Part shown: in pieces, positions 4,770-27,341 of the stretch
Position numbering within the stretch: position 1 is the first letter of the stretch
Layout of the letters: every line of letters begins with the position of its first letter
NCBI GenBank assembly: GCA_003024175.1
Contig: MDYQ01000451.1
Location: 1 to 27,341 of the forward strand
Direction: 5' to 3'
From: Planoprotostelium fungivorum
Lineage: Eukaryota > Evosea > Variosea > Cavosteliida > Cavosteliaceae
DNA length: 27,341 bases
Notes under the pieces: generated by a model
Told to the model about the DNA's origin: nothing
Database searches by the model: none
Seen by the model: the letters and a program-made list of their open reading frames with translations, nothing else
Position numbers and translations under genes: made by a program

Positions 4770-6890
4770 AAGGATTCTACAATGAAGTCGAACAGAGGGA
4801 GCAGAATCCTTCTTGGTGGTCAGCTGGAATCGCAGATCGCAGGTTTGAGCAACCAATTGGAGCAAGTCGATGCCATTGGAGAGTCCACCGAAGCCTAGCT
4901 GAACGAGATCGCTGAGAAGCTGGAAGTCAGCTTGACCAGAGAGCAGGAGCTGAAGAACAAGCTGAAGGAGCACCAGAAGCTTGTTGAGGCTGAGAAGCTG
5001 AACATCGCCAAAGTTGCAGCCGACAACGACCGCAACGGACACGTACTCCAGCAGCGTGAGGAGGAGATCACCAAGCTCCAAGCCAAGGTAAGGCTATTCT
5101 TAGAAGATCTGAACACCACTGACTCGTTGTAGATCGACGAACTCGTCGACACCGTGGACCAACTTACGTCGGAGGAGACTTCCATGGAGAATTTACTCCG
5201 TGACAGCGAGGCTGAACTCCACGCCACCGAGCAAGAGAGCGAGCAGATGACCGACGCCCTCAGAGGCAAAGTCCACCCAGGCTCAGCAACTCGACAAGGC
5301 AGAGTCCACCAGACGCATCGAGATCCTCCAAGCCGAGTTGGAGATCATCAGCGCCAACTTGGAAGAGAAGACACAGTGCTCCGAGTTGAAGGAGCAGGTG
5401 GAAGAGAGAAACGAAAAGACGAGAGACCTGGAGGAGCAAGTGAGACAGAGATAGATGGATTATTACACTGCCATCCGGAGAGAGATGGAGCAAGTTGTAG
5501 ACGCCAAGTCCGTTCTTGAGAACCAAGTCGAAGAGTCAAAGAGACAGGTGAAAAGTCTAAGAAGTTTTGCAGTAGCATCTCTGACGTGTGACCAGATCGA
5601 AAAGTATACCGAAGAGGTGGAGGATCTCAAATCTGCGATCACATCCCGCGATACCGCCGTCGGAGAATCCGAACTCGAAAGATGCCGCGAAGCAGACGCA
5701 CTCCGATCTGAGATCCGCAAATCGCAGGACCGCGCTCACCACTCAGCTCGCTCGCAGAGAAGAGCAGATCGAGGAGCTATCGGCAACCGTCCAAAGATAC
5801 GAGGCCTCGTCTGTCACCCTCCGTGGAGAATGCATGGAGCTGAAAGCCCAGCTGGAGGGTGAGCATCAGATTTCCGAGGACCTCCGCCGAGAGCCGTCAA
5901 AAATCCGAGGAGCTCGCTCGCCACTTGGAGGAGCAGGGAGAGGATAACAACTTGGGTCTGACCAAAGAGAGGAAGATCACCGCCAAGGCCCAGGAGAAGA
6001 TTGCAGATCTGGAATTGCAGGTCTCAGATCGGGAGGACCGCCTGACTGAACAGAAGGATAGACTGTACTCCATGGAGAACCAGCTCCAAGATCTGACTGT
6101 GGAGAGAACTCGCCTGTCGCAATCTCTCTCGGACGAATCTGCCACCCACGCCAAGGCCCAATGAGAGATCTCCGAAACGAGAGATCTCCGAGAGACTCCA
6201 AGCCAGTGGAGAGAGAGCAGATGCACTGGAGAGACAGATCGTCGATCTACAACAGCAGCAGCCAGGAGGGATACGACCACCGAGCCGAATTGGAGCAGCA
6301 GAAGGTTCTGCACTCTACTCTGGAGGCTCAGCTGACCGAGGAGAGAGAGAGGAGAGAAGCTTTAGAGATCAAATTGGAGACAGAGAACAGAGAGAAGAGC
6401 TGGCTCATCAGCTGAACGAGAACAAGCAGTGGAAAGTACAGCTCGAAACCGAGAAGGAAGCTGTCACCATCATCACGACACAATTGGAGGAGAATCTGAA
6501 GGTGAAGCGATCGTCTACAACGGTGTAGATTGACGGTGACAGGTGGTCGAAGAGCTGCAAGAAGAGATCGACCTCCTCCAGAAGGACCTGTCCTCGGCGC
6601 ATTCGCAGATCTGCGACTCCACGATCGAACTGGAATCCGCCGGCTGAGAATCCACCGACACCTCCGCCCGCCTCACCGAGCTGGCGCAGAAAACTCTGTC
6701 ACCATTGACGAACTGAAGGAGAAGCTTGACTTTGTTGAATCGGAGCTCGATGCCAGAAGGAGAACAACCGCAGACAATGTGAAGAGATGAGCTTCTTACC
6801 TGCGCAAGTGGCCATGGACGACATCACGTACGAAGACATGGAGGACAATGAGGAGAAGGTGGTACCCAACAAAAAGAGACACCTCCACCT
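4770..6890 (+). pseudogene. Myosin II-type heavy-chain rod (coiled coil), frameshifted
   Basis: For about 2 kb the plus strand encodes almost pure heptad-repeat coiled coil rich in Glu, Lys, Gln, Leu, for example LNEIAEKLEVSLTREQELKN, IDELVDTVDQLTSEETSMEN, EILQAELEIISANLEEKTQ and DLELQVSDREDRLTEQKDRL. This is the texture of a myosin II tail; no motor domain is present, so another long coiled-coil protein is possible. Introns are evident at 5088-5132 (ends GTTGTAG), 5440-5484 and 5548-5595, and probably at 4866-4898. The coil nevertheless jumps frame about 5265, 5733, 5893, 6170-6230 and 6370, and stops interrupt it near 6162 and 6646. The first three jumps look like one extra base each. A duplicated GAGATCTCCGA marks the 6162 break. 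Genes in the transposon of this same window splice cleanly, so decay is likelier than general sequencing error, though local assembly error is not excluded. Confidence 0.6.
5088..5132 (+). other. Intron (45 nt) in the coiled-coil gene
   Basis: GTAAGG donor, CACTGAC branch-like site and CGTTGTAG acceptor. Removing it joins ...EITKLQAK to IDELVDTV... in phase 0 and keeps the heptad pattern. It is the best example of the GTTGTAG-type acceptor that recurs in the left part of the window (also about 2045, 7463, 8558). Confidence 0.7.
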
Positions 6891-7227: not shown

Positions 7228-7730
7228 TTGGTTCAAATGATAGGTTTCAGATTGTCCAATCATTATACTCCCAACTCTCAATTTCCGAGGTTGATGGAGA
7301 CCATCGATGACGGAGACGATACAAACTGGTCCTTGGAATTGTTCTTCCAACCGAAGCCGTTAGACAAGCCCGGTGTGGACTATTACCTCAAGGCGAAAGA
7401 CACTGCGTTCCACTTCATCGTTTCTGGGTCGGAAAGATGAGTGAGTGAAACGGATCGTTGTAGACGCTGACAAAGGCAGTGTCTTTCTCAAGTTACAGCG
7501 TCAGTTTGAGAGATCTCGTAAGGTGCAAGGTAGTCATTCAGTGGTATCGCTCTCAACACGGCCCTGCTGGAGAATGTCTTCCCCCTCCTCGTCTGCATCT
7601 TGAATCGCATTCCCATCTTCCTGGTGGGAAAACCCGGATGCTCCAAGAGTCTCTCCATGCAGTTGATCAATGCCAATCTCAGGGGATCGGACTCTACATC
7701 GAAGCTCTTCAAGAAACTGTTTCTCCACAA
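7228..7730 (+). pseudogene. RNF213-like AAA+ ATPase/E3 ligase fragment, internally deleted
   Basis: The first exon (to about 7419) reads ...NWSLELFFQPKPL...; a probable 44-nt intron (7420-7463, ends CGTTGTAG) leads to VSLRDLVRCKVVIQWY, which resembles the 'VSLRD' linker segment that precedes the AAA+ core in RNF213/mysterin-type proteins. About 20 bases later the frame changes and reads NTALLENVFPLLVCILNRIP followed by the Walker A-like GKPGCSKSLSMQLI and NLRGSDS, also characteristic of this family (recalled, not searched). The 60-100 residues that normally lie between VSLRD and NTALLEN are missing without any gap symbol. After SKLFKKL (about 7725) the family resemblance stops; no Walker B or RING domain follows. 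I therefore read it as a truncated, rearranged copy. RNF213 proteins are giant cytosolic ATPases with ubiquitin-ligase activity; this piece could not provide that. Confidence 0.6.
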
Positions 7731-8653
7731 CCGATGTGGCCGATCTGCACGTCAAGTTCTGGATCCATTCGAAACAGATTCGAGCCGCCTATCACCTCGT
7801 CAAGACATTCATCGCAGCCTATCCACACTTCTCTCTCGAAAGAGGAAAAGACCTGACGTCAGCTCTGACTGCCTCCCTCTCTTCTCTCATGCCTTCAGAC
7901 ATTCTGAGGGAGGAGAAGGGTGTGTCGAGGTCTGGTCCTGCAGAACGGATCTCGTGGAGCGACGCTCCATCGATTGGCAGCCATGGGAACGGAAGATATG
8001 GTCATCGATCAACTGCTCGGAGGATATGCTGGATGTAGTCACGGGGACATCTAAAGAATTGGAGAGAGAGGTGGTGCAGTTCATATCTGATGCATTCTAT
8101 CGACTCTTCAATGCCAAATCCGACGTCAGCCCCACCATATTGCGATACATACTTGAGTACAGGGTGAGGAAGATGACATAGGATGACGTAAGATGACGTA
8201 TCAAAGGGACCACACGTCGACGTATTTGGATCCATTCTGAGACGCATCTTTGAAGAACAAGAGGATGACAATGGAGCGTTACAGTTGGGCCCAAACACGG
8301 TTCTCCACGAGGTAGAGGAGCTCCTTCCCACCGCTGCAGAGATCACACCCTGCATCGGACTTCTCTGTGACGTCATGGAGAACCAAGAATTCTCCGGTGA
8401 ATTCGATCCCACGGAATTGCAATCGTACAAGGGAGGCCAGCTCACTTGAAAACTCTTGTACAACATTGTATTGGCTCGCAGAACTGTACGAGACATCCAC
8501 AAACTTCTTTCCAATGGTGAATCGATATCGATTATCAAACGGCACTGACTCGTTGTAGATGATGACAACGCATTGACACAGGCTTCTGATGAAATCTCTC
8601 GGCTCGATCGTAAATCTCCCATCTTCCGATCACTCCAGCTCCTCCTCATCTAA
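7731..8653 (+). CDS. Unrecognised plus-strand gene with an in-frame TGA
   Basis: Several protein-like exons follow directly on the RNF213-like piece: ADLHVKFWIHSKQIRAAYHL and then LVKTF... in one frame (7739-7915), ATLHRLAAMGTEDMVIDQLL after a possible GTGTGT...CTGCAG intron, then LEREVVQFISDAFYRLF, and VDVFGSILRRIFEEQEDDNG...CDVMENQEFSGEF (8215-8446). At 8447-8449 a TGA lies in frame, after which the same frame continues KLLYNIVLARRTVRDIHKLL, and an intron at 8517-8558 (CGTTGTAG acceptor) joins to DDDNALTQASDEISRLDRK and a TAA at 8651-8653. The clean continuation on both sides of the TGA suggests a nonsense mutation or base error. I do not recognise the family; helical, soluble character. 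The 5' end is uncertain. Confidence 0.4.
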
Positions 8654-12028: not shown

Positions 12029-15000
12029 TCACTTCTTACGCCTCTTTGTCTGGGTGGGATCGCCCTTCTGATTGAAAGCTTGTAACTGATCAGGACTGTT
12101 CTCGAGATTATCTGCTGGGATCCACAGGTCATGTTCTGGGCCGTAACCTTTCCACCTGACCAGGTACTGCTTCTGACAATAGCAGGTACGGGCGTCCAAT
12201 ATGGTCTCTACCTCGTATTCTACCTCACTGCCAATTACAACGGGTGGAGGTGGTTTACGCTTTTGACCTTCCATTGTGTTCTCCACATATGGGATGAGAA
12301 GGGACGAATGAAATACGGGAAAGACTTTGATCTGAGGTGGCAGGTCAAGGACGTACGAACTGGAGGAGTGGGCTGCCTTTATGATGGTGTAAGGGCCCAT
12401 CCATTTGTCTGCCCATTTTGGTTTAGGGCGTGACGTGGTAAAATTCTTTGTTGATAATAGAACTTTGTCCCCTGGCTTGTAATCTGGTTCTGCCGAACGA
12501 TGCCTGTCAGCAAACCGCTTCATATCTTGACGTGCACGTTCGAGATTTGAATGTAAGAAGTCGGAATACTCGCGAAGTTTCACTGCAAGGATATTGGGAT
12601 CATCCGATATCGATCGACTACCACTGCCTGCGTTGGGGTGTAACCCTTGGTTCGCAAAGAAGGGGGTTGTGCCCGTGGCAGTGTGGATCGAATTATTATA
12701 AGAGAACTCTGCAGTGGCAAGGAGAGGGACCCAGTCGTCTTGCATATATGAGCAGAATATGCGTAGATACTGGTTCAGCACTGAGTTTACTCTTTCCGTC
12801 TGACCGTCAGTTTCAGGGTGGTAAGCCGTCGAAAGTAATGGCTCAGTACCAATAGCGTTCCAGAATGATTTCCAGAAGCCAGAACTGAATTGAGGTCCAC
12901 GATCAGAGATGATGTGTTCTGGGATGCCGTGGTGGCGGAACACCCTGTCGATGTATAGTGTTGCTGTCTCTTCGCTTGTAATTGTATTCTTACAAGGGAT
13001 GAAGTGAGACATTTTCGTGAATCGATCTACAACGACCATTATAGCGTTGAAGCCTTGGCACTCTGGAAGTTCGACCATGAAGTCAATGGTCACAGATTTC
13101 CATCGGTTTGAGGGAACTGACAAGGGCTGCAGTAGTCCTGATTGCTTACAATGGGAGTGTTTGGCTCGTTGGCAGACATCACACGATTTTACGTAGGATT
13201 CGATGTCATGAGTCATCTTGGGCCACCAGTAATCACGAGAGACTAGCTCCTTGGTCTTTCTTATACCATAGTGTCCGGCTATTGGAGAATCGTGTTTGAC
13301 AATGAGGATCGTTGTACGTTCCGACTTTGGGACATACATCATGCCGTTATATAACAGCAAACCATCCTTGAGTTCGAAACCTTGGTGGGTTGAATCTGCA
13401 TCATCAACTCCTTCTTCGTAACGTTTCATTTTGCCAGAATCGTAAGGGAATCTGGGGCGAGCTTTGCTATGAACGTTATCCATCCATTTGATGACAGAAT
13501 GGTAGTTTTCGTCGCTCTGATAGGCCTCAATGATACGTTTGTCGATTTGGGAATGAGAGATCGAATCATCTTTTGTGACTTTCAAAAGTGCTGCAAACAA
13601 ATGCGGGGGAAGTAGACATGCCTGTTGAGCAGTTTTGTCCCCTATGTCTAATTCATCTTGTTCTCTTCGGGACAAGGCGTCAGCCACGACATTTGTTTTG
13701 CCGGGTCGATGTTCGAGCGTGAAATTGAAATTGGACAGGAATTGCCACCATCGCACTTGATGTCGATTGAGTGATTTGGACGTCATGAAGTACTTCAGAT
13801 TGTTGTGATCTGTAAGGATATGGAATGGTGTAGATGTCTCCATCGTATAGTGACGCCATCCTTTAAGCGACTCGATAATTGCCAATAGCTCTTTATCGTG
13901 TGTGTCGTAATTGAGCTCGGCAGGTTGTAACTTTCTTGAAAGAAATCCCACAGGATGAATACCATCGCTGTGTACTTGGGAAAGTACTCCTGATATGGCA
14001 AAATCGGACGCATCGGTCTCAAGGATGATGGGGAGATCGGGATTGAAATGACGACATANTCCGACTTTGGGACATACATCATGCCGTTATATAACAGCAA
14101 ACCATCCTTGAGTTCGAAACCTTGGTCGGTTGAATCTGCATCATCAACTCCTTCTTCGTAACGTTTCATTTTGCCAGAATCGTAAGGGAATCTGGGGCGA
14201 GCTTTGCTATGAACGTTATCCATCCATTTGATGACAGAATGGTAGTATTCGTCGCTCTGATAGGCCTCAATGATACGTTTGTCGATTTGGGAATGAGAGA
14301 TCGAATCATCTTTTGTGACTTTCAAAAGTGCTGCAAACAAATGCGGGGGAAGTAGACATGCCTGTTGAGCAGTTTTGTCCCCTATGTCTAATTCATCTTG
14401 TTCTCTTCGGGACAAGGCGTCAGCCACAACATTTGTTTTGCCGGGTCGATGTTCAAGCGTGAAATTGAAATCGGACAGGAATTGCCACCATTGCACTTGA
14501 TGTCGATTGAGTGATTTGGACGTCATGAAGTACTTCAGATTGTTGTGATCTGTAAGGATATGGAATGGTGTAGATGTCTCCATCGTATAGTGACGCCATC
14601 CTTTAAGCGACTCGATAATTGCCAATAGCTCTTTATCGTGTGTGTCGTAATTGAGCTCGGCAGGTTGTAACTTTCTTGAAAGAAATCCCACAGGATGAAT
14701 ACCATCGCTGTGTACTTGGGAAAGTACTCCTGATATGGCAAAATAGGACGCATCGGTCTCAAGGATGATGGGGAGATCGGGATTGAAATGACGACATACG
14801 TCGGCTGAAATGAACGCCTCTTTTGTTGCATCAAATGCAGACTGTAACGAAGTATCCCAACGCCATGGTGTATTTTTCCTCGTCATATCTGTCAACAGGG
14901 TGACAATAGAGGAGTACCCTCTTATGAAACTGCGATAGAAGCTGCAGAAACCCAAAAAGGATTGGAGAGCCTTTAGGTTTGTGGGTGGTTCCCAATTACG

Positions 15001-15559
15001 GATAGCTTCCAATCGATCTGGACACATGTGTACACCATCTGGTGTTACTTCGTAACCAAGGAATTGTACTTTAGTCGTGTGGAACGTACATTTCTTGAGA
15101 TTAACGGAAAGTTTTTCGTCAATGACACGCTGCAGCACTTGACGTACGTGCGTCACGTGTTCAGTGTAAGATAGCGAATAGATGAGGAAATCGTCCAAAT
15201 ATATCTGTACAAATATATCGAGCATGTCCGCAAAGGTGCGGTTCACTTTGGATTGGAAATTTCCGGGACAATTTGAGAGTCCAAAAGGCATGACTAAGTA
15301 TTCAAACAGACCGTACCGGGTCCTAAAAGCAGTCTTCCACTCGTTGCCTTTCTTGATTCTAACCAACCAATACGCATCCTTAAGATCTAACGCGGTGAAG
15401 ATCTTAGCGGACCGTATCCAATCAAGCATTTCGTCGATAAGCGGCAGTGGATAGGTGCTTTTGACCGTTACATCGTTCAAACGACGATAGTCAACACATA
15501 GGCGAAGGGTGCCGTCTTTTTTCTTGGCAAAAAGGATGGGAGCTCCACAGGGTGACTTT
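12029..15559 (-). pseudogene. Gypsy Pol polyprotein: RT, RNase H, integrase, chromodomain
   Basis: Enzyme of a retrotransposon that copies its RNA into DNA and inserts it. Visible in order on the minus strand: RT starting SPCGAPILFAKKKDGTLRLC with the catalytic YLDDFLIYS; RNase H with ETDASYFAISGVLS and HILTDHNNLKYF; an HHCC zinc finger (HDSPIAGHYGIRKTKELVSR ... CDVCQRAK); the integrase DDE core (VTIDFMVELP, SDRGPQFSSGFW, HPETDGQTERVNS); a GPY/F-like segment (KWMGPYTIIKA); and a C-terminal chromodomain (EVETILDARTCYCQKQYLVR then WKGYGPEHDLWIP), ending in basic TQTKRRKK. The two halves each read open, with no internal stop apart from the scaffold joint at 14059. The chromodomain would direct integration to marked chromatin (known for chromoviruses). 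It lacks gag, protease and the start of RT, so this copy cannot act alone. Confidence 0.93.
13320..14798. repeat. Assembly duplication: 739 bp repeated around the 'n' at 14059
   Basis: 13320-14058 equals 14060-14798 without indels and with about seven substitutions. The left copy ends and the right copy begins exactly at the 'n'. That is what an unmerged overlap between two contig ends looks like. Confidence 0.93.
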
Positions 15560-15561
15560 GG

Positions 15562-15626
15562 GGGTGGTGGCTAAGGGGCAGGGTTTATACGCAACATTCA
15601 GCTAAATTGCAGTGCTAAATCGCATT
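15562..15626 (+). repeat. Left terminal inverted repeat
   Basis: Begins GGGTGGTGGCTAAG, abutting the interrupted gypsy pol frame. The best-matching outer 37 bases end GCAACATT (mismatches to the right end at positions 15, 22 and 29). The inner part contains GCTAAATTGC and GCTAAATCGC, the first members of the subterminal motif family. Confidence 0.9.
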
Positions 15627-15777
15627 GTACTTCAAAACTTTTATTATACATCAATCGATGTAAATGGACAGTCGGTGGTTGTGTCGATGGTGCGGAGCTG
15701 TCCAGACAGTGGTGCTGTTAACTACGCGATTTCGCTGATAGTTTCTGCGATATTGCTGACATATTCAGCGATTTAGC
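15601..15777 (+). promoter_or_regulatory. Left subterminal motif array (GCGATWTWGC family)
   Basis: Ten-base motifs at 15601 (GCTAAATTGC), 15614 (GCTAAATCGC), 15726 (GCGATTTCGC), 15747 (GCGATATTGC) and 15768 (GCGATTTAGC), in both orientations. Repeated short motifs just inside the ends are where many eukaryotic transposases bind (known for CACTA, Mutator and hAT elements). Binding here is inferred from position and repetition only. A start of transcription could also use the region. Confidence 0.65.
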
Positions 15778-15959
15778 GGGACATTTGTTAACAGCATATT
15801 TCACCTGATTGACCTGATCATCTAGCTGTGCAGGGAGTACTCACTCTCATCACGCTGGTCACTAGAATATTGTCTAACGTCAGACATCAAATCGTCAAAT
15901 GAGGGCAGTCAACACCCACCTATCATCTTGAAGGGTTTCTTCTGGATTTTGACAACACA

Positions 15960-17350
15960 GACGTTGGCAAGAGCAGACACTAAAAGTATTGCACTGCACG
16001 ACGTCAGTGCTGACGGAAGACGATTTTGCTCACCTGGTGTCTCTTTGAGAGCATACTTGCAGGCAGTCAATCACAGGCATGAAAGAGACTCATCTTGCAC
16101 CTTGTAAGAGAATCGGCACTTGGTGGACACCGTGTCACCCATAGGTCAATGCCATCTTGACATAAAGCGACTAGAGCTCGTTCAACCACGCGCCAATGCA
16201 CTCCTAGATATCGTCAATTCGTTCGACGCCAATGCCAACGAATTGGATAGACAAGCCACGTGAGCCAAATGAGGAAATTGAAACACTCACCACTGCACAC
16301 AGCCAATAGCGCCACATTCACTGGAGGAGGAATTTCCCCTGTGGATCACCTGGTAGAGAATATTAACCATTCTCAATGAAATTTGGCCTCACTCAGCAAA
16401 CAGTTGATTTCAAGAATCACCACTCACCTCGTCACAATCAGATGTACACATTCACCCTCCTCAATGACTAGCTCAGAGGAGGCTGTGGCATACACACTCC
16501 TAGACAGTGGCCTGCAATCTGCAGGAGATTCTTGTGATGCACCTTGAGCTGACAATTGACCCAATCAACCTACAAATCAATGAGTAAAAATCGAAGAGAT
16601 TCATCATCTTGACACCACTCACCAATACAAGCAGATCGATACAGTACAAGACCAAGAGCTCCGAAGGAACTTTGTAAGCAGGTGTGGCAAGAGGATCAAC
16701 AACAGACCAACCCAGTCATCCACCTTACCGTTTGTGCGATTTAGCTGACCTTCATCTGCGATATAGCTCAGCGATATAGCACATTTGTATCGCCTCACAT
16801 ATTTGCAGTGCCAATCTCTGACGCTGTTCCTCTCAATCGCTCTCGCCTCAACCTACAAACTATGTCAGTTTTTTACCCGCAAAGATCAGCAAGGCTGTGA
16901 CAACACTGAGGAGATGTTGTCGAGAGATTACGCCAACAATACTGATCTGCACAATGTCAGTGCTGATTCGAGACGATCTCACTCACCTCACTACCCTTTG
17001 AGCACACTAGCAGACATTCAGCCACGGACATCAAAGCGACTCACCTCTCACCTTGCAAGAGAACAAAGACTTGGTAGAGACTCCGGCCACCCAAAGGGAC
17101 GAAGAAATTGCCATACCTAGCAACTCCAGCTCGTTTGACCACACAGCCAATGCACTCCTGGATGACATCAATTCGTTTGACACCAAAGCCAACGCATCAG
17201 ATAGACGAGCCACGTCTACCAAACAAAGAGATTGCATTGACTCACCTCCAATAGCCCCACATCCACCGGAGGAGGACTCTCTGCTCTAAATTACCTGGTA
17301 GAGATTATGAACAATTCTCAACAACCATTGACCTCACCTCGACTCCCCAA
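15960..17350. repeat. Diverged tandem duplication, about 0.95-kb offset
   Basis: About 15985-16400 and 16930-17350 are recognisably the same sequence: both hold a CAATGCACTCCT-GAT-TCAATTCGTT-GAC core (16193 and 17150), the CTTGCA/CTTGTAAGAGAA stretch and a GGAGGAGGA...CACCTGGTAGAGA stretch. The second copy is open in plus frames (TANALLDDINSFDTKANASD), while the first has stops and shifts, though NSATFTGGGISPVDHLVENI still parallels NSPTSTGGGLSALNYLVEIM. One copy seems to be decaying. In between, 15780-15960 and 16420-16730 show nothing I can name. Confidence 0.6.
16737..16780 (+). promoter_or_regulatory. Internal motif cluster
   Basis: Three direct copies: GCGATTTAGC at 16737, GCGATATAGC at 16758 and again at 16771. 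They are in the same orientation, about 1.2 kb from the left end, next to the duplicated segment below, and could mark an older, nested element end. Confidence 0.55.
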
Positions 17351-17586
17351 CAACAAAGGTCCAATCTGCTCGCCCACCAACATCCACCCCTTGGACCAGA
17401 TTGATGAACAAAGCATCCCAGACTCTCCTACAAAGAGTTAACAACAGACTCACCCCACTTGAACGTTGGATTGAGGAGCACGGTGGCACTACGCATCTAC
17501 TCAGAGTTAGCCTTCAACACCAACGCAACAAAATCGTTCTCCTCATACTCGTACATCAGACTACACTCAAATCTGTGTTGAATTAG
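17050..17586 (+). CDS. Putative fourth element gene, disordered polar protein
   Basis: Three overlapping plus-frame stretches look coding: ENKDLVETPATQRDEEIAIP...TANALLDDINSFDTKANASD (17059-17225), TSTGGGLSALNYLVEIMNNS...PLDQIDEQSIPDSPTK (17262-17440) and VNNRLTPLERWIEEHGGTTH...TTLKSVLN ending TAG 17584-17586. They are in different frames and I could not place convincing introns between them, so the model is incomplete. The encoded sequence is polar and acidic with a helical end. Support comes from partial conservation of frame with the decayed upstream copy. Its 3' end overlaps the end of the convergent small basic gene by about 30 bases. Function unknown. Confidence 0.35.
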
Positions 17587-18135
17587 CTTGATGCGATTTC
17601 GAGATTGCTCACCTTGATGTTGGACACCAAGCAATTTTTGACTCACAATCAAAAAATCGAATCAGCATTACAAGATCCACAGCAGCTTACTTCTTGGTTT
17701 TGGCAGTGCGTTTCTGGGTGCTAACCAATTTCGCGCTGCCAGTTGTTTTGACGGCTACAATCCTCTCAGTTTACTTCAACATGTATGTATGTCTCACCTG
17801 GCTTTGCTCCTATGGCCTTCTTGGAAGGTTCTGACTTCTTGTTGACTGTATGGATCAGCTGCTGTATACGTATCTATCCCACCTTCTTGAGCGTTCTTTC
17901 TACGCTTTGGTGCTGCCTTCTCCTCCACTTTGTCATCTGCAGTCGATTGAGCTTTCCTACTACGCTTTGGTGCTGGCTTCTCTTCTTCTTTATCATCTGC
18001 AGTTGATCAGCTTATGAAGAATGATTACACTCACTTGATGCAGGCCTCTTGTGTGCACCTCTCACGAAATCGACCATCATGTTAAGGAATGTAGGGTCTT
18101 TAAACANTCAGCGGTGTGTTGTTTGTCATGGTCAT
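17556..18135 (-). CDS. Small Lys/Ala/Pro-rich basic protein, histone H1-tail-like
   Basis: From ATG 18080 six exons (18080-18035, 17996-17883, 17845-17798, 17754-17691, 17641-17613, 17572-17556) join with GT-AG introns of 31-49 nt to exactly 106 codons. The product is MMVDFVRGAHKRPAS, then two copies of a DDK-EEK-APKR-RK-AQ unit, then VNKKSEPSKKAIGAKPAVKT and STQKRTAKTKK: the composition of a histone H1 tail or other DNA-coating protein. No globular domain is visible. Upstream of the ATG the frame stays open (FKDPTFLN) to the 'n' at 18107, and on the other side MTMTNNTPL starts at 18135, 75 bases after the stop of the next gene, so the true start may be there. It could compact the element's DNA or help the transposase bind; that is inference. 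Confidence 0.65.
18107..18107. other. Scaffold gap inside the small basic gene
   Basis: Single 'n' between MTMTNNTPL and FKDPTFLN on the minus strand. No duplicated overlap is seen. The gap's true length decides whether those two pieces belong to one exon. Confidence 0.8.
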
Positions 18136-18210
18136 CTAAGGACAGGTTGATGTAGGTTCGGCTTTGAGTATAACCTACGTGATGTGAGTCTTATATAATG
18201 ACATTGAGAT

Positions 18211-21200
18211 TCAAACAAGTCCAAACGAGCGTAAGGCTAAATAGCATTTCGCGAGACGCGAAATAGCACACAATGCAAAATCGTCTCATCTCACCTGGAG
18301 GTACACTCAAGTTATAGCTCACACATGTCTTCTTGAGCACATCTGATGGCTTTTCGATGGGGTTTCCTTCAGCGTCCCAGTGCTGTGCCCAGATGAGTCC
18401 ACGAGAGATCAGATTGTTGATGTGTTTCTTGGACTGGCCAGATGTACCAAAGTAGTGTACTAGCCACCCTGTGGGGGTACCCTTGTGCTGCTCCTCTCGC
18501 TCAACGTTATGGGGGATGGCTGGACTGAACGGCTTTATGGTTGCAAAGCTCTGGAAAGCCTTGTCAATGTTTGCAGTCCACCACTTCATGTCGGTGTGCT
18601 CGAAGTCGTCAGCCTCCTGAGTTGAGAGGCACCCAATGACTGCATTGATGTACAGCTTGAGGGAAGCCGAAGGTAGATCCTTTGCCTCCTGTGCAACTGT
18701 ACTGACAAACTTACCGAGTATCATATTAAACACATTCAGAGGCACTACCATCCATCATCATATGATCTCAATTGTGAAGCGTTCGCTCACCTCTATTGGT
18801 CGACAATATGTGCACCTTGCACGCCTCTTTCAGAGCTAAAGCGATTTAGTCGTCATACACGCTATTGTCATACCTCTATCCTGGTCTAGCGGTATGTATT
18901 TCTTCTCTGCCTTCACTACCTGTATCACCTTGGGTGGTGGGCCCTGCCATTCTGACTTCTTGACCCGAGCTCTTACTCTGGATGATCCAGTATCGGAATC
19001 GCTTTCTGCTTCTGCCTTTCCTGACCCCTATCTCCTTTTCAGAATCTACATCATATATCAATCCCACCTCTTTATTGGGACGGAGGAGCTTCTTCAGATG
19101 GTCATCTCGATCCTCATCTGTCATTGCAGATAAACTAGCAATGTCAGTATACGATACTGCACCATGACTTACCGAGCAATTTCATCACCTCTCAGTTTCA
19201 GATTTACAACCTCAGGCCTCCTTTCCCAGCCCCCATCTGTATCCTGCACAGTAGATGAGTTGGGACTGATGTCACGATTTACCTTCGTTGTTTTCTTGGC
19301 AGCTCTGCTCAGAAATTGCCTCTGAATTGTATATCAGTACATCAATCGATATATCACAGCTCACCTTTGGAGGAGACTCTTTAGCTGAATGCGTGGCCTT
19401 CTGATGCAACTTAGCTTTTCAGTTGATGACTCAATGTATCACCTCCTTCCTTGTTGTACGTTTCTGCCCCTCTCCTTCCACTTTGTCTGTCTCTATGTTA
19501 GATCGATCCATCATCGCTACGCATCATACCTTTCTTATCTCCATCTTTGGGGTCTTCTGCAACATCGTCGTTGATTTCCTCACTAGAAGGTAGCTCATCT
19601 GTCTCGGACTCGTAATGCATCTTCTGTGTACTTGACTGCTAAATCGATTTAGCTTACAAATGTTTGCAGCACCCATCACTCACCTTACTGTTCTTGTTGG
19701 TCTTTGTGATCGCTTTGCGGCCTTGGTTCCTTTCCTTCCCCTTGGCCTCCTTGTCACTCTCCTCTTCGCTTTCGCTCTCATTCTCCTTCTTCTTCTTCTG
19801 CACCTCCCTCTTTTCCTTCTCTATGCTCTTCTCTGCATCGCTTTCCTCCTCCTTACCATTTCTCTTCTGCTCCTTCTTTCCCTTCTTTCCATCCTTCCTC
19901 TTCTTCTTCTCCTCTGCATCGCTTTCCTCCTCCTTACCATTTCTCTTCTCCTCCCCTTTCTTCTCATCCTTCCCCTTCTTCTCTGTCTTGTTCTTCTCCT
20001 CCTCTTTCCCCTTGCCCTTCTTCTGCTCGTTCAGCCTCTTCTCCTTCTGCACCTTGTCCTCCTCCTTATTCCTCTCTTTCCTCTTCTCCTCTCTCTTCTC
20101 CTCGTTCTCCTCCTCATCCTCCTCCTCATCCTCTTCTCTCTTCCTCTTATCATTCTTCTTCTTCCCATTCTCCTCTCTCTTCTTCTCCTTGTTCTCCTCT
20201 CTCTCCTTCTCCTCGTTCTCCTCTCTCTTCTTCTTCTTCTCGTCCTCCTCTCTCTTCTTCTTCTTCTCGTCCTCCTCTCTCTTCTTCTCCTCGTTCTCCT
20301 CTCTCTTCTTCTTCTCGTTCTCCTCTCTCTTCTTCTCCTCGTTCTCCTCTCTCTTCGTCTTCTCGTTCTCCTCTCTCTTCTTCTCCTCGTTCTCCTTCTC
20401 CTCGTTCTCCTTCCTCTTCTGCTTCATATCCTCTTCTTCTGGAAGGTCTTCTGCTCCACCTGATGTATCATCTGACAAGAGGTTTAGACATATGATACAT
20501 CTTCAGTAATTTATCTCACTTTGCGTAGATACAAGGTGATCACCTTCACCTCCCTCGATTGCATCAAGAGTGCTGTTGTTCTTCTATTCCTTGTGTCAGA
20601 GCGATTTTACAATTGGGCTTACCTTCATCCACTCGATATCATCCTGGTCATACGTGATTCCATTCACACTGACCACTGAATCCAACTGTCCATTGCTCTC
20701 GCTGTCGGACAGAACATCAGAGCTGACCAGAGACATCCTTCGACCACTCTGATTATGTGTTAGAATTCGTTTGCTGCAACAAGATCACCTTTTGAGACGA
20801 AGTTTTGTCCTTCGTGTTCTTTTCAAACTTCTCTAAGGGGTTGGGGTTGTGGAATGACTGGTCCTGTCCATCGCCCGTGGTTAACTTGACTATATGTGGA
20901 TCAGATGGTTCGATATGGATCGATCTCTCACATGACTTCTTCAATTCCTCCAATCTTGTGTTCACTGGACAGTCTTCAAATTTCCACATAGCCTTTCTTT
21001 TCTGTACGAATCAATTGACGAACAGAACAAGTCGACTCACGTCTGCTCCAGAACCCACATGTTCCATGACAACAGGTCCCACCACAGACTCCGGAACCAA
21101 TGGAAACTTCTCCTCTTCGTCACAGACCATCCATATTCCTTCGAGAGTCTCTTCCATCCATTTGAATGTCCACCTAAATCGATTTAGTCGATTGACTGAA

Positions 21201-21691
21201 GTGTTACAGTAATACTCACTTGTTGCTTCTCTTCTTCTTTCCCGTGATAACACAGGGAAAGAACTCTAATCTGGCCACAAGCTTGCCTCTCGATTTTGTC
21301 TGTTGAAGATAGGCGAGGAGAAAGGTCTGGCCAACTGCAGTTGGAAGACAATCGACAAGTTCATCGCTTCCCAATAATTCCAGAACACCTGAGACGATTA
21401 GATCGATCATCCATCATACATCACAACTCTCACCATAAAACTTATTCAGTTCCCTCAACGTTCCTTCTAAAATGGGCTTCCTTACTCTGTCTACCGTTGT
21501 TAGCTGTCGATGATACAACATATCATATCAGATCTGATGTGAGAATATTATCTGATTATCGTCTCACCTTGCAATGCCTTCCTTGGAGAATGGCTTGGTC
21601 TACTTTGGCTCATCGTCTGCTTCAGTAACTCCTCTCTGTGCCGCTGTTCGGTTGGAATGGCGCAAAGTGAGAAAAAAATATGTTCCGACAT
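18211..21691 (-). CDS. Accessory protein of the transposon, 18 exons, Glu/Lys-rich centre
   Basis: Hand-spliced model of 18 GT-AG exons from ATG 21691 (MSEHIFFSLCAIP) to TGA 18211-18213; the exon lengths sum to 2,691 nt, 897 codons. An in-frame ATG at 21751 is an alternative start. N-terminal part (residues 1 to about 230): folded-looking, with LNKFYGVLELLGSDELVDCL and WTFKWMEETLEGIWMVCDEE. Middle (about residues 288-550, exon 20471-19684): nearly pure Glu/Lys/Arg in KKREEN/KKREED units, then RNQGRKAITKTNK. C-terminal part: RLSAMTDEDRDDHLKKLLRP, then a compact region INAVIGCLSTQEADDFEHTD...WLVHYFGTSGQ...LISRGLIWAQHWD, ending ALRSFGLV. One exon (18874-18885) is only 12 nt. Four of its introns end in the TAAATCG-TTTAG motif. 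I recognise no known family. Large transposons of several superfamilies carry a second gene, and this one sits head to head with the transposase. Confidence 0.75.
18237..18294 (-). promoter_or_regulatory. Last intron, motif variant plus GCGAAAT inverted pair
   Basis: Minus-strand intron GTGAGATG...GCTATTTCGCG-TCT-CGCGAAAT-GCTATTTAG. GCTATTTCGCG and CGCGAAATGC form an inverted repeat, and the acceptor CTATTTAG is a variant of the element's motif. Confidence 0.55.
18836..18873 (-). promoter_or_regulatory. Intron whose 3' end is the palindromic motif
   Basis: Minus-strand intron GTATGAC...GACTAAATCGCTTTAG. The last 14 bases are a near-perfect copy of the element's doubled motif CTAAATCG-TTTAG: CTAAAT lies where a branch point should be and TTTAG is the acceptor. 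Confidence 0.6.
18874..18885 (-). other. 12-nt microexon
   Basis: Flanked by introns 18886-18928 (GTGATA...CCGCTAG) and 18836-18873 (GTATGA...CTTTAG). It contributes Asp-Gln-Asp-Arg and keeps phase 1 on both sides. Without it the last three exons are out of frame, and with it the whole gene closes to 897 codons. Confidence 0.6.
19636..19683 (-). promoter_or_regulatory. Intron ending in a 16-bp perfect palindrome
   Basis: Minus-strand intron GTGAGTG...GCTAAATCGATTTAGCAG. GCTAAATCGATTTAGC (19638-19653) is a perfect palindrome made of two GCTAAATCG half sites. It overlaps the branch-point and acceptor region. Confidence 0.65.
19780..20440. repeat. Purine/pyrimidine strand-biased tract coding Glu/Lys repeats
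   Basis: The minus strand is almost all purine (GAGGAGAA/AAGAGAGAGG units of about 21-24 bases) for some 650 bases, coding tandem KKREEN units inside the accessory gene. The plus strand is CTTCTCCTC-like. Such tracts can form triplex (H-DNA) structures and are prone to slippage; long Leu/Ser-rich frames on the plus strand are a by-product. Confidence 0.85.
21174..21219 (-). promoter_or_regulatory. Intron ending in CTAAATCGATTTAG
   Basis: Minus-strand intron GTGAGTATTAC...CGACTAAATCGATTTAG; the last 14 bases (21174-21187) are the perfect palindrome. Splicing joins ...KKRSNK to WTFKWM... in frame. Confidence 0.65.
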
Positions 21692-21839
21692 CTGACAGCG
21701 GCCACGCGCAATCGCTTGAACAACGGCACAAAGGATTGATATGCTCTGCAAAGACGATTCACTGCACTACGCTCAAGTTTATCCATATACATAATAGATT
21801 CATACAGTCAGCCCCAGAGAAACTTCTCCCGAGGCCACC
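21692..21839. promoter_or_regulatory. Divergent promoter between accessory gene and transposase
   Basis: Only 148 bases separate ATG 21691 (minus) from ATG 21840 (plus, context GAGGCCACCATGA, a good Kozak-like start). The interval has an AT-rich patch (TCCATATACATAATAGATTC, 21780-21799) that could hold a core promoter. Shared control of the two genes is inferred. Confidence 0.5.
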
Positions 21840-24800
21840 ATGACAGCTGTTCCGCATATCGTGCCTCAGTCCGAGGTGAATCGTCTGTGGAACAAGTATA
21901 ACATCTCGGGATATGACAGCTGTTCCGCACTGGATCTGCGCAAAGAGCTATCTATTTGCCTATACTGTTTCGCAACGAGAAATCTGCAACCAGGTCTCTA
22001 GCTATGGTCTAATAGATGTATCGCCTCGTATATATGAATGCATTCCAGCGCTTCAGATCGTTTTAATGCATGTGATCTTCGACGTGGGCAACACCCGCTG
22101 TCATACGAAGCGTCTTTGATTGTGAAATCTTATATGTTTCTGTTCTCCTTACAGCCAGATCGCTTTGCCGCCTCAATATCAATTCAAAACTTCGACTANG
22201 ATATGACAGCTGTTCCGCACTGGATCTGCGCAAAGAGCTATCTATTTGCCTATACTGTTTCGCAACGAGAAATCTGCAACCAGGTCTCTAGCTATGGTCT
22301 AATAGATGTATCGCCTCGTATATATGAATGCATTCCAGCGCTTCAGATCGTTTTAATGCATGTGATCCTTGACGTGGGCAACACCCGCTGTCATACAAAG
22401 CGTCTTTGATTGTGAAATCTTATATGTTTCTGTTCTCCTTACAGCCAGATCGCTTTGCCGCCTCAATATCAATTCAAAACTTCGACTATTGACCATACCT
22501 GTGCCCGACCATCTCACAACGCCACATACGCTTTTTCTCTCACAATGAGCCAACGCTCTAAAGAGGATGCATGGATCCTCATCCAAGATCATCCCGAGTT
22601 TAACACCAAGAATCATACAAGACAGAACCCACTCGTTGAATGGACAGAGACAGACCACATGTGGGAGGCACGCTTGATCTACGATAGGAGGAACTTGAAC
22701 AGAACGTGTCGAGTATGTAGATTGCAGGTACGACGATAAAACAACAACAGACTAACGATATGCAGAAGAAAGACTGTTTGAATTGGTGCAATCTCGTTTT
22801 CACCAGAAGATCTATCGCCGAACGCCATTTCGCATCGGCTTCACATAACTCGATCGTGCCCAACGATCGCTGTGAGCGATACAGCTGCATCGTCAACCTG
22901 ATACTTCTCCAGACGATGTTAACAAACAGATGCAGGGACTTGATGAAGAAGATGGTTTGTCACAAAGTGCAAGAAACAAGTCTGTCCGGAAATCGTCAAG
23001 GAGAATCGCTGCTCATTCTGATTTCGATGTGTTCGACTCGAAGCAAAATCGCAGCAGTGAAGNAAGAATCATACAAGACAGAACCCACTCGTCGAATGGA
23101 CAGAGACAGACCACATGTGGGAGGCACGCTTGATCTACGATAGGAGGAACTTGAACAGAACGTATCGAGTATGTAGATTGCAGGTACGACGATAAAAAAA
23201 CAACAGACTAACGATATGCAGAAGAAAGACTGTTTGAATTGGTGCAATCTCGTTTTCACCAGAAGATCTATCGCCGAACGCCATTTCGCATCGGCTTCAC
23301 ATAACTCGATCGTGCCCAACGATCGCTGTGAGCGATACAGCTGCATCGTCAACCTGATACTTCTCCAGACGATGTTAACAAACAGATGCAGGGACTTGAT
23401 GAAGAAGATGGTTTGTCACAAAGTGCAAGAAACAAGTCTGTCCGGAAATCGTCAAGGAGAATCGCTGCTCATTCTGATTTCGATGTGTTCGACTCGAAGC
23501 AAAATCGCAGCAGTGAAGAGGATGACGAGTGCTCCTTCTTACAACGACTGAATTCGATGAAGAATGAGGCGGCAGGTGGATGTAGCTTATCGTTGATCGA
23601 GTCTTGACATACTACAGAGTCACCAGAGTCTATCTTTGCACAGATCATTGATCTGATCTTTGACGAATCACAACCAGGTGTGCAAACGATCGATCGACTC
23701 TTCTGANTACGATAAGAGGAACTTGAACAGAACGTATCGAGTATGTAGATTGCAGGTACGACGATAAAACAACAACAGACTAACGATATGCAGAAGAAAG
23801 ACTGTTTGAATTGGTGCAATCTCGTTTTCACCAGAAGATCTATCGCCGAACGCCATTTCGCATCGGCTTCACATAACTCGATCGTGCCCAACGATCGCTG
23901 TGAGCGATACAGCTGCATCGTCAACCTGATACTTCTCCAGACGATGTTAACAAACAGATGCAGGGACTTGATGAAGAAGATGGTTTGTCACAAAGTGCAA
24001 GAAACAAGTCTGTCCGGAAATCGTCAAGGAGAATCGCTGCTCATTCTGATTTCGATGTGTTTGACTCGAAGCAAAATCGCAGCAGTGAAGAAGATGACGA
24101 GTGCTCCTTCTTACAACGACTGAATTCGATGAAGAATGAGGCAACAGGTGGATGTAGCTTATCGTTGATCGAGTCTTGACATACTACAGAGTCACCAGAG
24201 TCTATCTTTGCACAGATCATTGATCTGATCTTTGACGAATCACAACCAGGTGTGCAAACGATCGATCGACTCTTCTGATGTCCAGACAGAGACCAAACCG
24301 AAATCGATTTCGCCATGGTCACTGTCCTATGGGAACGAATCCTCATTAAGTACGTTGATCATCTCTGCACTAGTCTAAACCGTATATAGATACAGAATTC
24401 GATTCATCTTATAACGAGAAGGAGGACGAAGAATTCATCATTGCAGAGAAACTCTCAAGTATGTCGCTGAATGTCACAAAGGTGAGGAAGCAATCCATCT
24501 GTCATTCTCAACATCGTAGCAACCTGGTCATCTTCCATTCTCTAAAAAGATATCTCAACTTGTTCCCGTCAATCTTATGGCACCACCTCCTCTATTTGGA
24601 ATTGTACATGTCCTACGATATGTGGTCAATCACAACGATATTTGGGCCGACTGGATGCCTGATGTCTGCCATGTGAGTTGCAAATATGCTTGATACGTAC
24701 TGAACGAGCTACAGATGAACGATTCCAAAGATAAATGTGTGGTGACATATGGCGAATCTCGAGTGCGAGACAGAGCGTACGGTATGACAGGCCCAATGAC

Positions 24801-26656
24801 CATCAAGATGTTTCGATACTTCTGCAAGAGTCATTCCCATCAATTCACATTCAAAGACGCTAATCCTCCTTCTGAAGTGATCGCCATGCTGTCAGATACA
24901 CCCACACCAATTGTTATCTTTGATCGAACTATCATCACTCGTCAACTGTGGGACCATATCGTATCCACCTATTTTGAAGTCAGGAATTTTCACGAGGTAT
25001 CACGAAACATCACATTGATGTGGTTTCGCAATTTGCAAGACTACGAGTATAAGGTGAAGCGAATTGCGCATGTATGCTAACTCTAACCAGTGCATGATCG
25101 TTGGTGCATCTTTCTCCAAGATTGAACGAGATGAATACGAAAGATCGCTTTCGTTGACCCACACTCTGGTCACACAATTCGTTCACTCCTGGTATGATCT
25201 GTATGGTGTGCATGATCATCCTATGTTCGTCGTATTAATCTCAATAGGTAAACAGATAATCGATGATTACCAACAGAAGCTGTGTTGCAATACAGGTCGA
25301 GCATTGAGGATCGATCATACCTTCAAGTTTTCTAAATCGCTAGGAGTCTATCACAAAGGAAAGAAGATACAGCTATCGTCCTACGTCCTTGTGGTGATGA
25401 ATGAGGATACAAAGGTATTACGAGCAGAGATTGTGCCATCAGTTGGACACAAGGATACCATACCAGTACTGAAGAGTATCATCAAGACACCTGGGAAGAA
25501 GATGGCCACACAGGCGAGGTTTTTATTCACAGACAACGTTGCAAACGACGGCCCGGCTGTAGAGAATCTCTTTCGCTTCTTGCTCAAGTATGACATCAAA
25601 GTGTGCCAGGTGACATCAGCTTTTATGTGAATATACCCAAGTTACAATATTGCATACATATACGAGCGATTCAGCACGGCAATCGTGCATTACATCTTAT
25701 ATGATACCTCCATCATAAATGCATGCCAACGCACAAGCAGGACACATTCCACATCATTCAACGCATCTGCAAGTTCATGCCAAAGGCCCATCCCGACTTC
25801 TATGCAGCTCGTCGTCACATGTCTCGAATTCTCAAGAAGATCAACAAGGGACGATATAGGACTGAAGAAGAAATACAGAATGCGTTTCAGCGGTGGATAG
25901 ACGAATGGTCCGATGATTCTTTAGCATCACCCATGAGCGAGGTCGACATGATCTTAACCACAGGTGATACCACGATATCGCAATGACTAAATCGATTTAG
26001 CTGACCTAGAAGCCGGAGTGGAGCCTCGCAGTGTGAAGCGATTGAGTGCAGTTGCAACACCTTCAGCTGTACACTGCGTCAACATACAGATGGAAGACCC
26101 TGTCCTAACAGGACTGATGAATCTGATCGACTGCGAGTATACACAAGGTGATATTGATGCTGTAAGTGTTATTGAACATGAGCAGGTACTTCACCTATCG
26201 AGAATTTCAACAATGTACTGGCGTCATTCCAACCAAGATCACAAGGCTACATTTCTTTACCATCATTGAAGATGTTGCTACAGATGGCAGTCTTCCAGTT
26301 CAATTTGACGTAAGTTTTCAGATATGTATTGTACTTCCATCATTCATGAAGACTTCACGCACTCATTGACGTAGGAAAGACACAAAGATCGACAAGCAAG
26401 CTGGCAAAAACGCAAGCGATTTTGCATGATGCAATATCTGACTGATATTCACCATCCGCATGTCATCTTTGCTACAGCTAATGTGGACAATTGGACATTA
26501 GAGAAGGCAGTAGACATGGGATACAGAACAAAGGGCGATTCGACCAAGTGGTATCATGAACACGAGAAGGTACCATCGATGGGCATTGAAGATCATTGTG
26601 GAGACAAAAACATTGTAGGTGAAGAAATCATACATGTTTCTGACGACAGCAGCTGA
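21840..26656 (+). CDS. DDE transposase with C2H2 zinc finger, 16 exons
   Basis: Exons: 21840-21993, 22057-22121, 22449-22712, 22766-22871, 23941-24147, 24190-24249, 24290-24349, 24390-24481, 24520-24672, 24715-25053, 25091-25609, 25738-25963, 26001-26147, 26186-26309, 26380-26579, 26619-26656, skipping the scaffold-duplicated copies. They sum to 2,754 nt (917 residues plus stop). Near residues 165-188 is a C-X3-C-X12-H-X5-H zinc finger (CLNWCNLVFTRRSIAERH...H), likely for DNA binding. An acidic Ser-rich linker follows, then a region APPPLFGIVHVLRYVVNHND...YGESRVRDRAYGMTG. The catalytic RNase H-like core shows D575 (ALRIDHTFKFSK), D648 (RFLFTDNVAND), a D(2)H motif (QDTFHIIQR, D675/H678) and E803 in GTSPIENFNNVLASF. 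DDE plus D(2)H is known from cut-and-paste superfamilies such as hAT, CACTA, Mutator, P and Kolobok. The tail is acidic (GEEIIHVSDDSS). Role: cutting and joining the element's ends in the nucleus. The intron before exon 12 (about 128 nt) is the least certain. Confidence 0.8.
21910..22488. repeat. Assembly duplication: 289 bp repeated around the 'n' at 22199
   Basis: 21910-22198 equals 22200-22488 with three differences and no indel. It duplicates most of transposase exons 1-3. The copies meet exactly at the 'n'. Confidence 0.93.
22608..23518. repeat. Assembly duplication: 455 bp repeated around the 'n' at 23063
   Basis: 22608-23062 equals 23064-23518 with only a few substitutions (for example ACGTGTCG / ACGTATCG and an A-run change). 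It covers transposase exons 3-5. Confidence 0.93.
23136..24278. repeat. Assembly duplication: 571 bp repeated around the 'n' at 23707
   Basis: 23136-23706 equals 23708-24278 with a few substitutions (GAGGCGGCAGG / GAGGCAACAGG among them). With the previous duplication it leaves three copies of the zinc-finger exon in the window where one is expected. Confidence 0.93.
25964..26000 (+). promoter_or_regulatory. Transposase intron ending in CTAAATCGATTTAG
   Basis: Plus-strand intron GTGATACC...GACTAAATCGATTTAG (37 nt). The same 14-base palindrome that ends the minus-strand introns is used here on the opposite strand and in a different gene, which argues that it is placed there for more than the coding of one gene. 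Confidence 0.65.
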
Positions 26657-26833
26657 ATCAATCGATGAGATGAAAGACATCAACGAGAGTGATTCTGACG
26701 ATGATGACAAATAGGCCAATGAGACACACGAGGCAATCGCTGATAGACCTGATATAGCTCATCAGAATCAATGAGGAAAAAAACAGAAATGTGTAATAGA
26801 TATGTATGTTTTTTTGAATTAAATGGTTAGTCA

Positions 26834-26882
26834 GCAATATAGTGCGACAATATCGCTCTGCAATATAGCTCTGCGATTTAGC
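26834..26882 (-). promoter_or_regulatory. Right subterminal motif array
   Basis: GCAATATAGT at 26834, an AATATCGC half copy near 26849, GCAATATAGC at 26860 and GCGATTTAGC at 26873, mirroring the array at the left end. A looser GATATAGC is at 26751. Candidate transposase-binding sites. Confidence 0.65.
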
Positions 26883-26920
26883 CAATGTTGCATATAAATC
26901 CTGCCTCTTAGCCACCACCC
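26856..26920 (-). repeat. Right terminal inverted repeat
   Basis: Reverse complement of the left end: reads GGGTGGTGGCTAAG inward from 26920, then AGGCAGG and GCAACATT, followed by GCTAAATCGC and GCTATATTGC. It follows the transposase stop by about 200 bases. The flanking gene's open frame happens to read through it. Confidence 0.9.
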
Positions 26921-27341
26921 TTATGATGAAATGGGCGTCGTGCTTCAGGTCTTTGGACACAAATGTGAATACGTCCTTTCCAATCTTGTCTCCTTTCTTG
27001 TAGAACAGTATGACTCCAAAGACTGTCCTCTGTGATCGCTTGAAGAAGTCGTTCCCCATCTCGTTCTGACCTGAGAGGTGTCATGCATCACGTCACGTTG
27101 TACACCACATCTCATCGCACACCTTTCATCAGAGAGATGTTCTTTGAAGTCAGACAAAAGTACGATCTCTCCGTCGCTTAGATCTTGTATGTGCAGATAT
27201 TGATTAATATCATCTCGCAGATGATCGATCATCACCCTCTCGTTCATGTGCCTCTGACGATCCGTCTTGTGTTGACAATGCTCCTCGTACGTCTGAACAC
27301 AATCCTTCAAGCGCTTTGTCTCAGCAGCTGAAAGTCTGTTC
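26921..27341 (-). CDS. Gene fragment flanking the element, runs off the window
   Basis: Minus strand, open from the window edge: AAETKRLKDCVQTYEEHCQH, then HMNERVMIDHLRDDINQYLH...GEIVLLSDFKEHLSDE, an intron of about 50 nt (27070-27125, ending CTCTCAG), then NEMGNDFFKRSQRTVFGVIL, FYKKGDKIGKDVFTFVSKDL and KHDAHFII, where the transposon end begins. The frame stays open through the inverted repeat by chance. 'DFKEHL...VFGVILFYKK...SKDLKHDAHF' gives the feel of a conserved domain seen in repeat-associated protist and fungal proteins, but I cannot name it. It is probably interrupted by the insertion or by the scaffold. Confidence 0.5.

Follow-up and report, generated by a model that had tools for sequence, protein, structure and literature searches.

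Dada and other C/DxxH transposons

Dada transposons are known for entry into multicopy small-RNA genes and for missing inverted ends (PMC3706591). PMC3706591 and PMC8869645 assign to Dada target-site duplications (TSDs) of 6-7 bp, no terminal inverted repeats (TIRs), and small nuclear RNA (snRNA) and transfer RNA (tRNA) genes as targets, together with a CCCC zinc finger before the first catalytic aspartate (D1) and a CCHC finger near the C-terminus. Short subterminal inverted repeats are present instead of terminal ones, the Laccaria Dada carries an exonuclease between the second aspartate (D2) and the DxxH motif, and the spacing from D1 to D2 is 68 in Dada-U6_DR (PMC3706591). An apparent 8-bp TSD was discussed for Dada-U1, with 6 bp preferred (PMC3706591). 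Other C/DxxH superfamilies include hAT, P, MuDR, and Kolobok (PMC9587614). TSDs are about 8 bp in hAT and P (PMC3706591) and 8 bp in Zisupton (KDZ) (PMC12730594), and Kolobok duplicates TTAA (PMC9587614). Here we compare with these systems a DNA transposon located in the window, which is the entire contig C424 (27,341 bases) of Planoprotostelium fungivorum. The element carries a transposase gene and a divergently oriented partner gene.

The host is a fungus-eating amoeba of the Amoebozoa (Evosea, Variosea), and its assembly comprises 36.9 Mb in 471 contigs. The element is probably a cut-and-paste DNA transposon of this organism, from a lineage that is either sister to the Dada superfamily or a deep branch of it. 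The lineage looks like an undescribed one, in that its transposase is only distantly related to those of Dada and its ends, its 8-bp TSD, and its choice of targets are not those of Dada. A more tentative proposal, nearly as easy to believe as to doubt, is that it represents a superfamily-level sister of Dada with ordinary inverted ends, 8-bp TSDs, no targeting of RNA genes, and a dedicated partner. The element was not named anywhere in the literature that was found; most subscription papers and Repbase lay outside the search, so an entry in Repbase or an unpublished one is possible.

Inverted ends, miniature copies, and target-site duplications

The element and its ends have the following coordinates in the window:

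15560..26922, no strand assigned: whole transposon, with the GG end on the left and the AA end on the right (the transposase 3' side); limits from miniatures with 8-bp TSDs
15560..15598, plus strand: left TIR including the terminal GG; arm comparison, limit from miniatures
26884..26922, minus strand: right TIR including the terminal TT, which reads 5'-AA on the opposite strand; arm comparison, limit from miniatures

The original prediction had placed the element at 15562..26920, with inverted ends identical at 34 of 37 positions. The arms were recovered exactly there (15562-15598 and 26884-26920; 37 nt, 34/37 complementary, 92%), but the outer limits had to be moved, because miniature copies shift each terminus another 2 nt outwards, to 15560 and 26922. 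A 21-nt motif of the ends, searched at up to 3 mismatches, has 48+55 matches in the 36.9-Mb host genome, compared to 0+1 for the same pattern read backwards, in keeping with the expectation that copies elsewhere share the inverted ends. Among the stretches fetched, 31 adjacent pairs of inward-facing ends lie within 2 kb of each other, and 23 of these pairs span 368-369 bp. The mean identity of these miniatures is 96.6% (19 full-size copies), a value that suggests fairly recent movement.

The original prediction had also proposed that TSD length be determined from other copies, and this proved feasible with the miniatures. The sample consisted of 32 pairings in which the ends are separated by 150-700 bp, each read with 30-bp flanks on both sides, and excluded ends without a partner or at the edge of a contig; one pairing re-uses the end of another. 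When each end of the element is extended by two bases (AA; GG/CC), 12 of the 32 pairings exhibit an exact 8-bp TSD and 2 more exhibit one with a single mismatch, whereas shuffled pairings yielded a mean of 0.35 exact matches (maximum 3). Other lengths in the same register were found twice at 4 bp, twice at 7 bp, and never at 5, 6, or 9-12 bp. The 12 matches counted at offset 3 (6 bp) and at offset 4 (4 bp) represent the interior of the same 8-bp matches. The TSD sequences vary among insertions, and one of the 14 TSD-bearing sites sits in a CCTACCTAT repeat (L053), where the match is uninformative.

The full-length element and the miniatures carry the same two distinct ends (in the window, AA lies towards the transposase gene and GG towards the partner gene) and the same order of motifs there, with CAACATT and CTAAAT following a few bases inside each end. 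Because the AA/GG termini of the miniatures are common to the window element, the element is taken to be 15560-26922. Portions of its left end are also present on contigs C116 (15560-15881, 89.8% identity), C110 (15561-15834, 80.3%), and C397 (15560-15768, 95.7%), and a portion of its right end on C116 (26822-26922, 89.2%).

The transposase and its relatives

The transposase gene was modelled from codon usage and splice-site scores, followed by hand correction and comparison with contig C305:

22545..26714, plus strand: transposase gene, 15 exons, 809 aa; independent gene model, annotated by others as PROFUN_14879 (P0001)
22545-22679 joined to 23708-23755, plus strand: exon 1 in two pieces, split by a duplicated assembly overlap
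23794-23899, 23941-24147, 24190-24249, 24290-24349, plus strand: exons 2-5; gene model
24396-24481, 24520-24672, 24715-25071, 25121-25205, plus strand: exons 6-9; gene model
25248-25609, 25741-25963, 26010-26147, plus strand: exons 10-12; gene model
26186-26309, 26380-26569, 26619-26714, plus strand: exons 13-15; gene model
25248..25609, plus strand: exon with catalytic D1 (RIDHTFK) and D2 (LFTDN), 73 residues apart; gene model and motifs
25741..25963, plus strand: exon beginning with the D(2)H motif (DTFH); gene model and motifs
26186..26309, plus strand: exon carrying the putative catalytic E (GTSPIENFN); motif placement, without a significant profile match

A complete-looking DDE transposase of 16 exons had been predicted. 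The 809-aa frame is indeed free of internal stops, but the exon list, although it contains 16 pieces, amounts to 15 exons in the independent model. The predicted D...D...D(2)H...E order is present as RIDHTFK (D455), LFTDN (D528), CQDTFH (D554-x-x-H557), and GTSPIENFN (E679). A C2H2-like finger, C-x(9,10)-C-x12-H-x5-H, is found at the N-terminus of both the window protein and its relative P0002 from C305, and a Cys/His cluster before D1 (C-x8-C then C-x2-H, or CCCH) is kept in both loci. The transposase ends 130 residues after E, and this part contains no CCHC finger motif.

The transposase gene and the divergent partner recur together, in the same layout, on contig C305 (L034, G000:C305), where the annotated relative P0002 has 55% identity over the core. 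By eye, six intron positions are common to the C424 and C305 transposases, at VCR(L/M)Q, at CH/CT before ND, at LYG, between VCQ and DTFH, at the DLEAG site, and between TQ and GTSP. Positions 1-75 of C305 consist of CCCTAAA repeats of the telomere type and directly adjoin the 3' end of this second transposase copy, which apparently sits at a chromosome end. The expectation that copies with these genes carry the inverted repeats was borne out for the gene pair but not for the ends, as none of the window type was seen at the C305 locus, which adjoins the telomere repeats on the transposase side. A third, decayed transposase fragment is located on C46. In addition, P0003-P0006 are further pieces of the transposase, either nearly identical or decayed in part, from contigs of only 2-6 kb that were not found in searches of the 471-contig assembly; in P0004, the first catalytic D is changed to N.

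Close relatives are confined to the host in the searches conducted. The transposase core, compared with 5.77 billion proteins by a search that requires shared 5-residue words and that distant relatives can escape, scored 2587 candidates, of which 2 reached E<=0.001, both from P. fungivorum and with PROFUN_14879 as the best match. A two-sequence profile yielded 5 proteins at E<=10 (3501 candidates), again all from P. fungivorum. A scan of viral contigs gave 53 pattern matches, none of which was confirmed as a relative. At E<=10 in Pfam, the spliced transposase had only two spurious matches, both below cut-off (HMMER filters drop most weak matches), while scans of the exons gave nothing above cut-off and sequence comparison with solved structures gave chance-level matches only. 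A resemblance of the E motif to MuDR, ISL3, or IS256, judged by eye only, was rejected.

More distant relatives were found among mushroom proteins. A search with a fragment of this family gave 17 of these (P0007-P0023) from 64 candidates; the family was picked for its likeness, and its E-values carry that selection. According to the precomputed Pfam column, DUF6729 is present in 12 of the 17 and a 3'-5' exonuclease in 11, and the order where the whole region is present is D1, D2, exonuclease, DxxH, and E, in agreement with the exonuclease position given for Laccaria Dada (PMC3706591). When the core was aligned by hhalign to a profile built from 12 of these 17, the score was 69.5 (E 2.2e-9), compared to a mean of 15.2 for 60 column shuffles (standard deviation (SD) 3.0, maximum 23.6) and to 14.8 for the reversed control; hhalign of the tool alignments gave E values of 6.7e-8 and 1.6e-5. 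In an hmmsearch of 1005 sequences, the mushroom profile matched the window protein at E 1.1e-9, with the best of 1000 shuffles at 0.41. The same profile also matches P0001, P0003, and P0004, and reaches only E 2 for P0002, a protein that in its public annotation is missing the stretch with D1. The spacing from D1 to D2 is 73 in the window protein, and among the 12 mushroom proteins with both motifs it is 70 in 10 and 71 and 74 in the others.

From these profile comparisons, the D1-D2 core is detectably homologous to that of the mushroom Dada-type proteins, and similarity beyond D1-D2 is not significant. A permissive alignment sets the two E motifs close together, which is suggestive only. The original prediction held that the superfamily could not be placed. 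This agrees with the lack of any Pfam family at cut-off, but not with the homology of the core to Dada-type transposases. DUF6729 was not found in the host genome, and control genomes gave none either.

Placement relative to known superfamilies

Likenesses to Dada include the homologous D1-D2 core with its near spacing, DxxH then E by motif (E without significant profile support), a putative zinc-binding cluster before D1, and an intron-rich element of several kilobases. The element could be an ordinary member of the Dada superfamily that kept its TIRs and makes 8-bp duplications, a reading that is possible if somewhat doubtful. The core, the spacing, the location of the Cys/His cluster at about the right place, and the apparent 8-bp TSD discussed for Dada-U1 (PMC3706591) are all consistent with it. 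However, the element has TIRs of 37-39 bp whereas none were found in published Dada, its TSD is 8 bp rather than 6-7 bp, and its transposase lacks the C-terminal CCHC finger. It also has a second gene, encoding the divergent, Glu/Lys-rich partner. At the place comparable to the N-terminal CCCC finger of Dada, the transposase has a CCCH-like cluster (C-x8-C, C-x2-H). The window protein further differs from the mushroom Dada-type proteins in being shorter and in lacking the exonuclease insert. Moreover, none of the 14 TSD-bearing insertions, which lie in 13 of the 20 loci scanned, is at a detected RNA gene. Rfam identified one 5S and one tRNA gene in the 20 loci, both >400 bp from a miniature, and ARAGORN on 26 loci found the tRNA-Cys of L004 only. 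The 13 rejoined empty sites gave no tRNAs with ARAGORN (they were not run against Rfam, and a split non-tRNA gene could escape), and they have no sequence in common except for two sites within L053. Because several published Dada features are missing, the element is not filed as Dada but is placed closest to it. It is improbable that the element belongs to another C/DxxH superfamily (hAT, MuDR, or P) or to Zisupton/KDZ; duplications of about 8 bp are typical of several of these groups. The 8-bp TSD is shared with Zisupton (KDZ) and, together with the C/DxxH motif in its D(2)H form, with hAT. Yet the window transposase has no Pfam match at E<=10 except the two spurious ones, with no family domain of MuDR, P, or KDZ/Zisupton matched, while the mushroom Dada-type profile matches it at E 1.1e-9. 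Pfam contains models for hAT as well as for MuDR, P, and KDZ/Zisupton, and no hAT-type domain was matched at E<=10 either. The TIR sequence and the partner are also unlike those known from hAT, P, MuDR, and Kolobok. The varied 8-bp TSDs of this family differ from the TTAA of Kolobok.

The element might alternatively be an assembly chimera, in which ends and genes from different copies were joined by the scaffolder. We consider this unlikely, even though there are four single-N gaps in the element (18107, 22199, 23063, and 23707), with duplicated overlap sequence surrounding the last three, as well as unlike flanks, no TSD, and further transposase pieces on short contigs (P0003-P0006). The sequence is free of N from 23708 to 27341, a stretch that takes in the right end together with most of the transposase gene, and only a single gap (18107) separates the partner gene from the left end. 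Likewise, homology of the left flank to a Ty3 relative on contig C46 ends at 15561, two bases inside the element, and the gene pair has the same layout at C305. The element spans 11.4 kb in the window and about 10 kb once the duplicated overlaps are removed, which agrees with the originally predicted size.

Several observations weigh against a mobile lineage adjacent to Dada. The window copy has no TSD, with the outer 8 bp being GTGACTTT on the left and ATGATGAA on the right, and the Ty3 polyprotein gene in its left flank does not, by eye, continue in the right flank. The host genome yielded no further full-length copy carrying both ends. Among the miniatures, 18 of the 32 pairings have two or more mismatches at 8 bp, and some of these look as if they had been rearranged or shifted by a few bases. 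The miniatures demonstrate mobility of the ends, not that the window transposase mobilised them. The mushroom proteins are labelled Dada by architecture, without comparison to a named Dada sequence. In addition, the DxxH-E part (9 proteins) scored 16.4 in hhalign, compared to 13.8±2.7 for shuffles (maximum 23.3) and 17.2 for its reversal, and a hidden Markov model of this part gave shuffles and no real protein among the matches listed. When D1-D2 was kept and the rest shuffled (5 proteins), the score was 63.5 versus 59.7±1.0 (maximum 64.9), and in global mode with the rest shuffled it was 45.0 versus 34.2±6.2 (maximum 48.6). Finally, the predicted structure of P0001 (6 sequences) is of low confidence (mean predicted local distance difference test (pLDDT) 30.3, predicted template modelling (pTM) score 0.24) and does not confirm an RNase-H fold. 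Because the window copy lacks a TSD and has four gaps, this particular copy may not be intact, though the anatomy is sound. The description as one autonomous element stands with regard to a coherent DNA transposon, and its autonomy is unproven given the missing TSD, the assembly gaps, and the unlike flanks.

If the element is an untargeted relative from which RNA-gene-targeting Dada diverged, it would join Dada to the hAT/P/MuDR group. A Dada relative with ordinary ends and unrestricted targets could reveal the protein parts that confer RNA-gene targeting. Within the Amoebozoa, it also contributes an element accompanied by many miniatures to a branch for which sampling is poor, and it defines a conserved, probably accessory protein for which the Pfam scan gave no relative.

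Partner gene, repeated motif, and a possible mode of movement

The second gene and the Lys-rich stretch adjacent to it are located as follows:

18293..21490, minus strand: partner gene, conserved part, with an N-terminal domain, a Glu/Lys-rich middle (19654-20478), and a C-terminal domain (18293-18745); start uncertain (model from 21786)
17543..18097, minus strand: Lys-rich 'H1-like' stretch, probably the partner C-terminal tail across gap 18107

The model of the partner has 18 exons down to 18323 and is divergent from the transposase gene, as had been predicted for a Glu/Lys-rich protein, and the gene is conserved at the second locus. In both loci, the protein has a conserved N-terminal part (CLPTA..QTFL..YL, VVGPVV.E) and a C-terminal part ending LS(V/I)PPG. 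The C-terminal domain is 30% identical between C424 and C305, and at E<=1 it was found in the host genome at these two loci only (counts are lower bounds). No Pfam family matched the partner domains above cut-off, Pfam being the database used here. The partner is probably an accessory protein, with DNA binding, nuclear import, or complex assembly as candidate roles.

Three or four genes had been proposed, including a small H1-like protein, and two are supported. A separate H1-like gene was rejected because a GTGAG splice donor is conserved after LS(V/I)PPG in both loci, with a Lys-rich tail downstream. Most simply, the H1-like stretch is probably this tail of the partner, with gap 18107 intervening. 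A fourth gene in 15.6-17.5 kb was also rejected, as the gene finder produced models on both strands (88.7 for minus, including the H1-like exons, and 72.9 for plus).

A short motif recurs throughout the element:

15615, 15769, 16737, 18842, 19639, 19645, 21174, 21180, 25332, 25987, 25993, 26874 (range 15615..26881), no strand assigned: motif CTAAATCG/CGATTTAG, near both ends and inside introns

The expected number for these 12 occurrences is 0.24, and 300 Markov resamplings gave at most 2; the remaining 15.5 kb of the window contains none. The miniatures hold up to four such motifs at recurring distances from their ends, and in 52 loci (116 kb), 125 of 129 motif matches have an end motif no more than 600 bp away. 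From this distribution, CTAAATCG/CGATTTAG is a putative binding site for the transposase or the partner. The palindrome CTAAATCGATTTAG is located inside three introns of the element genes (19639-19652, 21174-21187, and 25987-26000), and the same 8-mer is also present in the C305 partner intron after LSIPPG (L034:7071). A link of the intronic CTAAATCGATTTAG to self-regulation or splicing is possible.

In the mechanism we propose, the transposase, with its C2H2-like finger, second Cys/His cluster, and RNase-H-type core, would bind the inverted ends and the adjacent CGATTTAG-type motifs. It would then excise the element together with the AA and GG terminal dinucleotides, and insertion would proceed via an 8-bp staggered cut. 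The ~369-bp copies might have been moved in trans by the same machinery, with the Glu/Lys-rich partner acting in an accessory role.

Neighbouring sequences

The two RNA genes detected in the loci scanned are a 5S ribosomal RNA gene (L051 13-132) and a tRNA-Cys gene (L004 656-727), neither of which is at an insertion point. Elsewhere in the window, host genes recognised by eye are present at 4600-6800 and 7500-8650, namely a coiled coil resembling a myosin tail and an AAA stretch similar to RNF213 (FLVGKPGCSKSL); the RNF213-like region contains two open reading frames (ORFs) without a Pfam match. On the minus strand at 26923-27341, the right flank of the element codes for pieces of another protein (FTFVSKDLKHDAHFII...) without a Pfam match, which seems to come from some other mobile element. 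The left flank (12029-15559, minus strand) contains Ty3-type polyprotein ORFs with reverse transcriptase, integrase, and a chromodomain-like end, identified by eye, which are broken by the transposon at 15559/15560.

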